Shown: positions 5,695-9,776 of the stretch, piece by piece | Numbering within the stretch: the stretch's first letter is position 1 | Layout: each line of letters opens with the position of its first letter | Assembly: GCF_963664965.1 (NCBI RefSeq) | Contig: NZ_OY761823.1 | Location: 1,808,001-1,872,000 of the forward strand | Reading direction: 5' to 3' | DNA from: an uncultured Pseudodesulfovibrio sp. | GTDB taxonomy: Bacteria; Desulfobacterota; Desulfovibrionia; Desulfovibrionales; Desulfovibrionaceae | DNA: 64,000 bases | Notes under the pieces: model-generated | Databases searched by the model: none | What the model was told of the DNA's origin: nothing | What the model saw: only the letters and a program-made list of their open reading frames with translations | Translations under genes and position numbers: made by a program

Positions 5695-7281
5695 ATGACT
5701 CCGCAGACAGGTATGCAGATCGGCAGTGTGGTGACACTTAACGGCGTGGTGTGGGCGGTGACTTCCGAAGGTGACCGTGTCCTTGAAAGCGGTGCTCCTG
5801 TTTACAGGGGCGAATCCATTGTCACGGGTAGAAATGCCAATGTCGAGATTCAGTTTCAGGACGGCACACTGCTCGGGCAGGGGCAGGAAGCGCGTGTAGA
5901 CCTTGACGAGTACGTTTTCGACGGCGAATCCGGCGGACTGGATTTCCAGATGGTCAAGGGGGTCATGCGGCTGGTTTCCGGCAAGATCGCCGAAACCAAT
6001 CCCGAAGCGTTCAATCTCTCCACGCCGCTTGCCACCATAGGCATTCGCGGGACCGAGATTATCGCCAAAATCAACGTGGACGGGCAGGTGGTCGGTGTTA
6101 CCGACATGTCTCCGGGGCATTACGTCGTTGTGGCGACTCCTGACGGAGAGGTGCGTATCGAGGCTCCCGGTCTGTTCGCAGGCGTGGACGCCGACGGCTT
6201 CCTGACGCAGGTGCAGACGTTGCCGCAGGATTTCATTGATGCGGTGCAGGCGGCTGTTCCCCTTACGACTATGGGCGATTCGCCGCGTGACCCGGATGAT
6301 CCGCCTCCTGACGTGCAGGACCCGGTTCCGGGCGGGACCGAACCGGGCGGGCCGGACGGTGAACCTGAACCTGCGGGCGAGCCCATGCCGGGTGGAGATG
6401 ATCCGCCTCCGCAGGGAGTGGAGCCTCCTCCTCCGCCTCCGCCGCCTCCGCTTCCGCCTTCTTCTGATGCTGGCGCATTCGACCCTGCTGATTTTGTTCC
6501 TCCAGACACGACTCCCGAACCTCCTTCCGACGATACCGTCCAGATTCCCGATGAAACGGTTCCCGGCGGTGAGTCCGGTGGCGAAGTATGGGTGGACCAG
6601 TCCGGCAATGCTTCGGAACATTGCGGTACGGAATTCGGCGATACGTTGTCCGGAATGGACATGAACGACACTTTGTATGGCATTCAGGGAGATGACTACC
6701 TGCTGGGCGGGGACGGGAATGATGATCTGTTCGGCGAGTGCGACAATGACACGCTTCAGGGGGATGCCGGTCTCGACTATCTTGTCGGCGGCAACGGAAA
6801 CGATTCCCTTGTCGGCGGTGCGGGTGACGACATCCTTGCCGGTGGTGCCGGGATAGACACCATGAGCGGCGGAACCGGCAACGATACGTTTACCATTTCC
6901 TCGACCACGGACGGTATCGACTCCATTGTCGATATGCATGCGGCTTGCGGCGGGGGCGACATGATTTCGCTTTCCAAGGTCGGAGCAAATGCGTTCGGCT
7001 CATTGAGGTGGGAGGGGAACAACCTGTCCTCGTATTCGTTCGCATTTGTCCAGAGTTCCGACTATGACGGTACGGGTGTCGATTTCGATTCCGGTGAGAC
7101 CAAGGGCATTGTCTATGCCAGTGATTCCGGATCCACTTCGGGCAAGCTGTATTATGATCCGGACGACACGCAGGCCGGTGATGAAATCCTGTTGGCGACA
7201 GTCACCGAGACGGATGACGACGGCAATCCTCAGGACAATGACATCACCAGTTCCGATATCGTGGGAGATGTCGTTCGCTGA
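5695..7281 (+). CDS. FecR-like and RTX-repeat protein, probable type I secretion substrate
   Basis: 528 residues without a signal peptide. Residues 1-130 resemble a FecR/retention-module fold (VYRGESIVTG, VEIQFQDGTLLG, LSTPLATIGIRGTE). Residues about 195-300 are very rich in Pro, Gly and acidic residues, including a polyproline tract. Residues about 310-400 carry glycine-rich calcium-binding nonapeptides (GGDGNDDLFG, GGAGDDILAG, GGTGNDTF). The acidic C-terminal 120 residues are typical of type I secreted proteins. The ATG at 5695 follows AGGAGGG. The layout suggests a calcium-binding surface or released protein. No secretion ABC genes lie next to it. Its end is 30 bp from the convergent hgcB gene with no clear terminator between. 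Confidence 0.8.
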   Translation: MTPQTGMQIGSVVTLNGVVWAVTSEGDRVLESGAPVYRGESIVTGRNANVEIQFQDGTLLGQGQEARVDLDEYVFDGESGGLDFQMVKGVMRLVSGKIAETNPEAFNLSTPLATIGIRGTEIIAKINVDGQVVGVTDMSPGHYVVVATPDGEVRIEAPGLFAGVDADGFLTQVQTLPQDFIDAVQAAVPLTTMGDSPRDPDDPPPDVQDPVPGGTEPGGPDGEPEPAGEPMPGGDDPPPQGVEPPPPPPPPPLPPSSDAGAFDPADFVPPDTTPEPPSDDTVQIPDETVPGGESGGEVWVDQSGNASEHCGTEFGDTLSGMDMNDTLYGIQGDDYLLGGDGNDDLFGECDNDTLQGDAGLDYLVGGNGNDSLVGGAGDDILAGGAGIDTMSGGTGNDTFTISSTTDGIDSIVDMHAACGGGDMISLSKVGANAFGSLRWEGNNLSSYSFAFVQSSDYDGTGVDFDSGETKGIVYASDSGSTSGKLYYDPDDTQAGDEILLATVTETDDDGNPQDNDITSSDIVGDVVR

Positions 7282-7311: not shown

Positions 7312-7599
7312 TCAGCAGCAATCGGAGGTCACGGGACGTCCCGTGATGCGGGACAGCCAGACCGTCATTATGTATGAGGCACAACCTACGCCCGGTGTGA
7401 CGTTGATCGCGTCCACCGGGCAGTTTCTTGCACAGGCTCCGCATTCCATGCAGGCGTCGAAGTCCGTGATTTCCGCCTTCTGATCACGCAGCCCGAAAAT
7501 GCGGTGGGGACAGACCGTCACGCACATGCCGCAGCCGACACAGGCGGTTCTGTCCAGTGAAAGTGTCGCCACATCTTTGAGATAGCGGAATCCTTTCAT
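7312..7599 (-). CDS. hgcB: HgcB, 2[4Fe-4S] ferredoxin of mercury methylation
   Basis: 95 residues. Two cluster motifs are present: CVGCGMCVTVC (20-30) and CMECGACARNC (50-60). Cys73 (GVGCASY) and the terminal Cys94-Cys95 pair match the key cysteines I recall by number from the HgcB of strain ND132. HgcB is understood to reduce the HgcA corrinoid and may deliver Hg(II). The ATG at 7599 has GGGAG upstream. It begins 14 bp after the hgcA stop, so the two genes form one operon. Identification rests on the CMECGAC motif, the length, the C-terminal CC and the hgcA neighbour. Confidence 0.95.
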   Translation of the reverse strand: MKGFRYLKDVATLSLDRTACVGCGMCVTVCPHRIFGLRDQKAEITDFDACMECGACARNCPVDAINVTPGVGCASYIMTVWLSRITGRPVTSDCC

Positions 7600-7613: not shown

Positions 7614-8798
7614 CTAGCCGATAAACGGCGCGGTAATCCAGATGACAAAGGCGAGCAGTGCGATTCCCGCCTGTATGGGGATGAAGCGCCGCATTTCCTT
7701 TTCCACCCCGGTGGGCGAGGTGAAAGGTGTCGCCCCTGTGAAGTTCATCGCCAGATATGAAGCGACTGCCGAGGCCCAGAGCAGAAAGGCGGCATGTTCC
7801 ATCAGGGAAAGAGGGAACGGCAGAAGGAGAGAGGTCGGCAGGGCCGTGATTGCGCCGACCAGAAAGCCTTTGGGTGAGAAGTATTTCCAAGGCAGTCTGG
7901 GGAGGAGCAGCGGTACGAGTGCGCCTCCTGCCAGCAGGCCGATCAGGGTGGCGCAGATGATTGCGGCTCCGCGTGTCCATGCCGTTTCGAGCGAGTAACC
8001 GCCCGGTCCGATCCCGGACACAAGGAGCGCGCAGGCAATGACGATCGCCAACGGTTTTCCGCATGTGAACAGTTCCACCGGGATGAGTTCGGCCCGTTGT
8101 TTCAGGGTGAAGGTGACTTCCCGCATCGCTTCTGTGGCTTCATTGCCCGCATGAATGAACGCAGGCAGGTCTTTTGCCTGCACAGGCCCGTAGACAATTT
8201 TGAATCCGCACGCTTTTTTCAGGCCATGGGCGGCCACGCCGGTGGCGCTCAACTGCGGCAAAATGACTTCCCGGTGGCTGACGACGTCGGCCAGCCGCGT
8301 GGTGATGATGCTGTATGCAATTTCCTCAGTGGAAAAGAGTTCCTTGCCCGCGGCACACCAGACGTTGATGCCACGGGTGTCGATGACGAGTAGCCACGCA
8401 TCCACACCTGCCAGTTCCCGGCGGACGGCATCAAACGTCAGCTTGTAGTTGGCGGTGACAAGCACCGGCGAATCCTCGGTGGGGTTGCCGACGCAATAGA
8501 TTCCGGGGACTACCTTGTAATTGTTTCGTCCGAACCCGATGCGTACCCGGGCTGTGCTGAAAGCGTCCTGAAAGGAGAGTTCCGTACGTATTCTGGGGAC
8601 AGGGCCGACAGGTGTCTCCCTGAAATCGATGACATATGGTTCAAGCGCGTATCCCGGTCTGTTGAAGCCCCCGGCACGGGGGGCGGGCTTGGGTCCTCAA
8701 CACGGTGCGTCATCTTGAATCGTCGGCGGGGATATGTTTTCGACAGGCGGTGCCATGTCGAGCGGTTCGAGTGTGTTTCCAGTCTCTTTTTTCTTCAT
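7614..8798 (-). CDS. hgcA: HgcA, corrinoid protein of mercury methylation, with in-frame TGA (possible selenocysteine)
   Basis: The cap-helix signature GINVWCAAGK supplies the Cys thought to be the lower cobalt ligand. The preceding block (ETPVGPVPR, NYKVVPGIYCVGNP, PVLVTANYKLTFDA) is the corrinoid-binding domain. The last 150 residues hold five membrane segments ending at FVIWITAPFIG. HgcA transfers a methyl group to Hg(II), working with HgcB encoded just downstream. The start is problematic. Between 8466 and 8696 the frame has 77 codons and no ATG, GTG or TTG, then a TGA at 8697-8699. Upstream the same frame continues to ATGs at 8756 and 8798, reading PTIQDDAPC, then TGA, then GPKPAPRAGGF. 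Read through, the protein is 394 residues (380 from 8756). The TGA may encode selenocysteine, be an error or mutation of a Cys codon, or be bypassed by a frameshift from the ATG at 8713. Family call certain, 5' end not. Confidence 0.93.
8667..8699 (-). promoter_or_regulatory. candidate bacterial SECIS element after the hgcA in-frame TGA
   Basis: TGA is at 8697-8699. Twelve bases later GCCCCC (8679-8684) pairs perfectly with GGGGGC (8667-8672) around the six-base loop CGUGCC. The apical loop starts 18 nt after TGA, and its second base is G followed by U. This fits the general bacterial SECIS pattern: a stem-loop immediately after UGA, loop 16-37 nt away, G among its first two bases. The stem is GC-rich and could be fortuitous in coding sequence. 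Confidence 0.5.
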
Positions 8799-8864: not shown

Positions 8865-9776
8865 TTATTTTTTTGTGAGCTTGCGTTGCCTGCGGATCGT
8901 ACGGACGGAATCCATCGTGTAGATGACAAGACCTGCCCAGATAAGGGCGAAGGTGAGCAGGTGGCTCGGACCGAACGGTTCCCGGAATACGAACACGCCG
9001 AGCAGGAAAGCTATGCTGGGTGCGGTGTATTGCAACACCCCGAGTGTGGTCAGTTGCAGCCTGCGTGCGCCGAACGCAAAGCCGATGAGTGGCGAAGCGG
9101 TGACGACACCCGCACCTATCAGGAGCAGGTTGATTTCCATGTTCCCTGCCAGAAAACCGCTTGCACCCGTGAATTGCAGATGCAGGAGCCAGTAGAGTGC
9201 TGCCGGGGCGAGCACCATGGTTTCGAGAAAAAGTCCGGGGAGCGATTCAACGATCGCCACTTTTCGCAGCAACCCGTAAAAGGCGAAGGAAATGGCGAGT
9301 GTCAGTGAAATCCATGGAAGCTCGCCGTAGCTGACTATCGAGTTGGTGACGCCCGCGGCAGCCAGTGCGATGGCGATCCATTGCGGCTTGTTGGGGCGCT
9401 CCTTGAAGAAGGCGAATCCGAACAGCATGTTGACGAGCGGATTGATGTAGTAGCCGAGACTCGTTTCAAGGACATGGCCGGTGTTGACGGCCCAGATATA
9501 AAGCAGCCAGTTTCCACCGATCATCAGGCTGCTGAGAGCCAGAATGATGAGGGTCTTTGCACTTTTCATGGGAGCAAAGGTTTCAGGCCATCGCTTGTTT
9601 ATTGTCAGGATGACGGCAATGAAGACCAATGACCACAGGATGCGGTGGCAGAGAATCTCCATGGGATTCACTGAATGCAGGGTCTTCCAGTACAGGGGAA
9701 GAAGCCCCCATGCGACGAAGGATGCGAGGGCGGCGATGAAGCCGGAGGTGATGTCGTGTTGCGATCGAGGTGTCAT
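8865..9776 (-). CDS. rarD: RarD-type EamA permease
   Basis: 303 residues with about ten hydrophobic segments and the RarD-type opening FVAWGLLPLYWKTLHSVNPMEILCHRILWS. Later segments include LETSLGYYINPLVNMLFG and LQYTAPSIAFLLGVFVFREPF. The family belongs to the drug/metabolite transporter superfamily of inner-membrane exporters and its substrate is unclear. The C-terminus is basic (RRQRKLTKK) as expected for a cytoplasmic tail. It is upstream of hgcA on the same strand with a 66-bp gap, so partial co-transcription is possible, although a candidate promoter lies between them. Confidence 0.88.
   Translation of the reverse strand: MTPRSQHDITSGFIAALASFVAWGLLPLYWKTLHSVNPMEILCHRILWSLVFIAVILTINKRWPETFAPMKSAKTLIILALSSLMIGGNWLLYIWAVNTGHVLETSLGYYINPLVNMLFGFAFFKERPNKPQWIAIALAAAGVTNSIVSYGELPWISLTLAISFAFYGLLRKVAIVESLPGLFLETMVLAPAALYWLLHLQFTGASGFLAGNMEINLLLIGAGVVTASPLIGFAFGARRLQLTTLGVLQYTAPSIAFLLGVFVFREPFGPSHLLTFALIWAGLVIYTMDSVRTIRRQRKLTKK

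Follow-up and report, generated by a model that had tools for sequence, protein, structure and literature searches.

A candidate selenocysteine codon in the N-terminal arm of HgcA from an uncultured Pseudodesulfovibrio

The hgcA gene of an uncultured Pseudodesulfovibrio, contained in the 64,000-nucleotide stretch of DNA analysed here (the window), is interrupted by a single in-frame TGA that is best read as a selenocysteine (Sec) codon, with Sec inserted at residue 34 of HgcA at a probability of about 0.95. That HgcA is a selenoprotein in this lineage was suggested in the initial annotation of the window, and the suggestion is supported by the exchange of TGA with Cys codons, by covariation in a hairpin that follows the TGA, and by the Sec machinery of the genome. 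We infer the insertion of Sec from these three lines of evidence together with the anatomy of the locus and the conservation of the codon. In the proposed mechanism, translation would start upstream at ATG 8798 or ATG 8756; SelB and Sec-tRNA, guided by the hairpin at 8667-8684, would insert Sec34 beside Cys33, and the ribosome would then continue to give an HgcA of 394 residues.

Selenocysteine in HgcA is already predicted in print, and the window gene is a further member of a described kind. A table in a 2026 review lists HgcA with the motif 'CU', citing its references 61 and 63, and HgcB with the motif 'GVGU', citing its reference 63 (PMC13188914). Reference 63 is Haft and Gwadz 2023 (J Bacteriol 205:e00259-22), and reference 61 appears to be Zhang and Gladyshev 2008 (PMC2398784). 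Citing Haft and Gwadz, a 2024 paper mentions possible selenoproteins among the homologues of hgcA and hgcB (PMC11588087). As far as the review table describes it, the listed selenoprotein HgcA (NF040863; PMC13188914) belongs to the same family as the window protein, has the same Cys-Sec pair, and owes its Sec to prediction from an in-frame TGA; there is no demonstrable difference in kind, and the window adds one more member. The searched literature, in which most listed papers were judged by their listing, yielded no further paper bearing on selenocysteine HgcA.

The features of the locus are collected in Table 1. The TGA, at codon 34 of 394, is the sole interruption of the hgcA frame. The product is identified as HgcA by a profile search (NF040863, 434.2 bits against a cut-off of 275, residues 67-392), and the cap-helix motif N(V/I)WCA can be recognized in it as GINVWCAAGK, in which Cys148 is the counterpart of Cys93 as numbered in the published ND132 protein. 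The cap Cys of HgcA is the corrinoid ligand (PMC11588087, PMC7305189). Immediately before the TGA the frame reads PTIQDDAPC and after it GPKPAP; the next 77 codons, up to GTG 8465, include no ATG, GTG or TTG, and two ATGs lie upstream. The flanking residues, the start-free codons and the two ATGs had been described in the initial annotation, and the translation and the start-codon listing agree. It had also been expected that automated annotation would lose about 110 residues. A gene call beginning at GTG 8465, the first possible start past the TGA, loses 111, a loss that in an AlphaFold model extends to where the third-to-fourth strands of the corrinoid domain begin. The 283-residue piece that is left still scores 368.5 bits against NF040863, so the truncation goes unnoticed. 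Inspected by eye, sites of the GGAGG type precede the homologous ATG in four relatives (L009, L012, L016 and L018), and the window has GGA only. hgcB adjoins hgcA downstream. The upstream neighbour, on the same strand, is a rarD-type EamA transporter gene (window 8865-9776), and hgcAB is faced by an ORF on the plus strand (window 5695-7281), 528 residues long, that has FecR and RTX calcium-binding repeats. The viral contigs that were scanned held no relative.

Table 1. Positions in the window of the features discussed in the text.
Feature	Position	Strand	Basis or remark
hgcA, read with Sec34	7614..8798	minus	394 codons plus stop TAG; translation, NF040863
ATG, proposed start	8796..8798	minus	Homologous ATGs in relatives
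Second in-frame ATG	8754..8756	minus	Upstream of the TGA
TGA, candidate Sec codon (residue 34, right after Cys33)	8697..8699	minus	Cys-TGA in 61 distinct loci
Proposed SECIS hairpin, GCCCCC-CGUGCC-GGGGGC	8667..8684	minus	6-bp stem, hexaloop CGUGCC; covariation in relatives
Val56 codon, GTC in the window	8631..8633	minus	Published ND132 numbering begins at the matching codon
GTG, codon 112, first possible start past the TGA	8463..8465	minus	Start-codon listing
hgcB	7312..7599	minus	95 residues plus stop TGA; NF040864, 129.5 bits against a cut-off of 99

The TGA is found in many relatives. A set of 98 genomes, that of the window included, was searched with the window HgcA (P0001); 54 match at E<=0.001, some of them weakly and through the corrinoid domain alone. 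An HgcA match with one in-frame TGA is present in 39 of the 98, again including the genome of the window (in G026 the match is split over two contigs). A larger set of 126 loci combines 46 from these genomes with 80 that were the nearest GTDB contig matches listed, and is therefore not a random sample. Among the matches listed, a TGA lies within 60 codons upstream of the HgcA core in 71 of the 126 loci, and in 64 of these a Cys codon stands before it (60 CUGP, one CUDP and three CUPP). Removal of duplicates (L068, L069 and L124, and also L108) takes three from the 64 and leaves 61 distinct Cys-TGA loci. The seven loci with no Cys before the TGA were dropped; in L104, L105, L125, L126 and L136 the TGAs look like stops upstream of the gene, the other two being L086 and L130. 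A second count, made over 121 loci listed with L046 left out and L041 scored as Cys-Cys, finds 60 with Cys-Sec and 45 with Cys-Cys in the arm, 12 with neither, and 4 that are cut off.

In other relatives the window TGA aligns with Cys, in CCGP and similar motifs, which bears out the idea that it stands for a Cys of the Cys-Cys-Gly-Pro element named in the initial annotation. Exchange of TGA and Cys codons between relatives is the usual mark of a Sec codon. A lack of conserved residues upstream of the TGA had been named as evidence against selenocysteine; such residues are present, with Cys33, Cys-or-Sec 34 and Pro36 invariant in all 25 aligned rows (25 of the 40 HgcA sequences prepared, Sec being written as C). 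On a quick tree of the HgcA core from 116 loci, built with no bootstrap, the distribution of Sec versus the rest needs at least five changes, a count that is the only one used from this tree, in which L026, L086, L104 and L126 are marked 'none' despite a Cys pair. One group of 51 rows, in which Desulfovibrionales-type relatives stand with loci titled Desulfobulbaceae and Desulfocapsaceae, is all Sec.

A few loci depart from the common arrangement. L041 (from G050) has Cys-TGA in the arm, then a 9-bp hairpin with the loop GGC, and a Cys-Cys element 26 residues on; no ATG, GTG or TTG lies between the TGA and this element. In L130, from the SAR324 cluster, the Cys comes directly after the TGA (Sec-Cys order); the arm is Cys-rich, and there is a hairpin of 7 bp with the loop GGUCA. 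The CUPP variant occurs in L116 and L142 (Desulfuromonas-like) and in L040 (from G043), where the arm is unlike that of the CUGP proteins and is followed by hairpins of 6 or 7 bp. Within the genus, L047 (G033:C3:30247-30603) contains hgcA as short pieces with a TAG and looks decayed.

The candidate SECIS hairpin of the window starts 12 nt past the TGA, and its loop, with G as the second base, lies 18 nt past it. The initial annotation had its position, stem, loop and G exactly right, but taken alone the hairpin is weaker evidence than was thought. The 55-nt fold of the window is less stable than the mean of its dinucleotide shuffles (z +1.37), 188 of 200 shuffles being at least as stable, and the best hairpin of the window (L001) is unexceptional against synonymous recodings (p = 0.109). 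Single-sequence folding is thus uninformative and was rejected as proof of a SECIS. What raises the hairpin above chance is that the TGA and its flanks are conserved and that stem changes are paired across relatives. For each gene, the best hairpin with a G in the first two loop bases was compared with those of synonymous recodings, with relatedness between genes uncorrected. Among the matches listed, the 61 TGA genes have a median of -10.2 kcal/mol, where their recodings average -4.1. Of these genes 28 are at p<=0.05 and 59 are at p<=0.5, and L031 and L085 are the two that have no hairpin of this kind. In contrast, the 41 Cys genes among the matches listed have a median of -0.1 against -1.7 when recoded, with 3 at p<=0.05 and 18 at p<=0.5.

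Covariation was assessed in 29 of the 61 TGA genes, hand-chosen to share one register (L013 was kept though its best hairpin lies elsewhere). Both sides change at five of the six stem pairs, and 98.2% of stem cells pair, compared with 30 to 63% when the register is slid; none of 500 shuffles reaches as high. The window itself is a clear case, in which Ala and Gly take the place of the Asp and Val seen in most genus members, an A-U pair becoming C-G, so that two protein residues change together and the RNA stem is kept. For L014, Val and Asp at the covarying stem positions give a U-A pair.

The genes needed to read such a codon are present. A check of the genome for selA, selB, selC and selD had been recommended, and profile searches place selA (604.5 bits), selB (392.0 bits), selD (320.6 bits) and tRNA-Sec (80.7 bits) over their cut-offs, ARAGORN also calling the tRNA as Sec with the anticodon tca. 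The selD gene (G000:C1:1034944-1035873, L057) has one in-frame TGA of its own, so that SelD may be a selenoprotein as well. Of the 39 TGA genomes, 37 have selB over cut-off, the exceptions, G007 and G056, being 82% and 67% complete; since selB is over cut-off in 88 of the 98 genomes, its presence in TGA genomes is weak evidence. G048, which has a Cys-Cys HgcA (L026), has no selB over cut-off at 95% completeness. An Rfam scan of the 64-kb window at gathering thresholds returned five tRNAs and nothing else.

The pattern of substitution indicates that the part upstream of the TGA is translated. Its residues are partly conserved within the genus, and dN is below dS in all 12 pairs with computable dS (14 were tried); the ratios are mostly 0.4 to 0.8, so the constraint is moderate.

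Where HgcA starts is of consequence for the model protein from Pseudodesulfovibrio mercurii ND132. Its cap Cys has been published as Cys93 (PMC11588087, PMC7305189), its named residues include Asn245, Arg250 and Tyr303 (PMC7305189), and its position 1 is described as a 'putative' GTG start (PMC5038027). When residues are counted from the Val found 22 codons past the TGA, the cap Cys becomes residue 93 in all 20 genus members, a likeness to the ND132 protein; in the same numbering Arg250 is found in 17, Asn245 in 6 and Tyr303 in 5 of the 20. No genus member has both Asn245 and Tyr303, and hence none of the 20 is ND132. The Val codon is GTG in 12 of the 20 and GTC in the window. Because the cap Cys falls at 93 throughout and the Val codon is often GTG, the published ND132 start very probably falls immediately past the Sec arm, and the 'full-length' ND132 HgcA probably lacks that arm. 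As described, then, the published protein differs from the window HgcA in running from the putative GTG with no Cys-Sec arm. This shortening was not found in the literature searchable as text, and Haft and Gwadz may already state it. E. coli lysates containing the ND132 protein methylate mercury (PMC11588087). That protein is armless by the present reading, and the arm would therefore not be strictly required in vitro; the purified ND132 complex was inactive, which its authors blame on Sarkosyl (PMC11588087).

The same start and the same active lysates lend support to the best of the rival explanations, which we nevertheless regard as very unlikely. Here the TGA would be a real stop, the upstream frame would encode a separate short peptide, and HgcA would start past the TGA, possibly through coupled reinitiation and in many relatives at the Val56 position; in a mixed version, the Sec form and a short form would both be made. 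The modelled domain does begin at residue 56, and the matching codon is GTG in the 12 genus members mentioned, GTG accounting for 258 of the 602 Val codons found elsewhere in these genes. However, the remaining 8 genus members have no GTG there, and in the window, where the codon is GTC, the next ATG, GTG or TTG is codon 112, within the corrinoid domain; with this GTC and the 77 codons devoid of a start, Val56 is ruled out as the true start in the genome of the window. Among the matches listed, 27 of the 61 TGA loci have no ATG, GTG or TTG within 22 codons after the TGA. Also against a start past the TGA, dN in the 22 codons between the TGA and Val56 is below that of the core in all 14 pairs, other relatives have the arm with Cys-Cys fused in frame to HgcA, and the hairpin is conserved.

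More improbable still is readthrough of the TGA that inserts an ordinary amino acid without Sec machinery, whether through an altered code or through general leakiness. The frame is indeed open on both sides of the TGA, but TGA terminates hgcB just downstream, the residue exchanges with Cys and not with Trp, a dedicated hairpin is conserved, and Sec genes are present. Least probable of all is that the TGA comes from faulty sequencing, or that the gene is decaying and has recently acquired a nonsense mutation: decay does occur, as G033 has hgcA in broken pieces alone, but the same codon in 39 of 98 separately assembled genomes, that of the window included, is not a sequencing error, and the window frame is otherwise open, with residues that match the invariant alignment columns.

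Selenocysteine is also predicted in the partner protein. The window HgcB has Cys73 (in GVGC), ends in Cys94-Cys95 and has no Sec; it differs in this from the selenoprotein HgcB with the motif GVGU (NF040864), in which Sec replaces Cys73, a different thiol position within the HgcAB complex. Among the loci listed, 15 have a TGA at HgcB residue 73 (L104, L107, L109, L112, L113, L120, L123, L125, L126, L131, L132, L133, L136, L139 and L147), and these are Desulfobacula/Desulfotignum-like where titled. For the comparison with HgcA, arm labels were reassigned by script on 107 loci. None of the 15 has a Sec-HgcA, and in 10 the HgcA arm is devoid of a Cys pair. Among the loci listed, 60 have Sec-HgcA; their HgcB has Cys in 57 and is unreadable in 3. 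In the loci listed Sec thus occurs either in HgcA or in HgcB (at residue 73), and in no locus in both, a pattern that fits one selenol per complex and that was not found in the literature searchable as text. On the tree HgcB-Sec amounts to one change, confined to one clade, and the pattern therefore proves nothing by itself; as a statistical result it was rejected, with 4 independent pairs and a median p of 1. In L115, L117, L141 and L146, HgcB ends in a single Cys and then TGA, where many relatives end in Cys-Cys, and this TGA could be either a C-terminal Sec codon or an ordinary stop.

The AlphaFold model of HgcA has an overall mean pLDDT of 87.2 and is confident from residue 51 on. The arm is modelled as coil at low confidence, with block values of 65, 63 and 70 for residues 21-50 and below 50 for residues 1-20. 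By sequence, the HgcA corrinoid domain matches the large subunit of the corrinoid iron-sulfur protein (2h9a; profile positions 66-211, E 2.8e-17), a likeness that covers neither the HgcA membrane domain nor the Cys-Sec arm. As corrinoid iron-sulfur proteins are the sole matches among solved structures, there is no template for the arm. By homology the corrinoid ligand is Cys148, and not the Cys-Sec pair.

Selenolates bind mercury more tightly than thiolates, and a Cys-Sec arm would for this reason suit either end of the mercury route. The pair could form part of a flexible HgcA arm that would bind mercury, as Hg(II) or as methylmercury, and carry it towards or away from the corrinoid and the thiols of HgcB; we give such a mercury-handling role roughly even odds. 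In a model published in 2020, Hg(II) from an unknown source is taken up by HgcB Cys94/95 and then methylated at the HgcA corrinoid, after which the product is transferred to HgcB Cys73; a thiolate from outside, which may be a Cys of a protein, then releases it (PMC7305189). A more far-reaching proposal, tentative and on balance doubtful, is that ND132 HgcA as studied is N-terminally shortened and that the native mobile Cys-Sec (or Cys-Cys) arm is the missing ligand of this model, either as the source of Hg(II) or as the outside thiolate by which methylmercury is released from HgcB Cys73, with one selenol per complex, in the HgcA arm or at HgcB residue 73 but never in both.

Methylmercury is the product of HgcAB, and a large part of what is known of HgcAB chemistry comes from a single model protein. 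Should ND132 natively have the Sec arm, the 'full-length' constructs lack a conserved Cys-Sec pair, and a dependence of mercury methylation on selenium would be directly testable.
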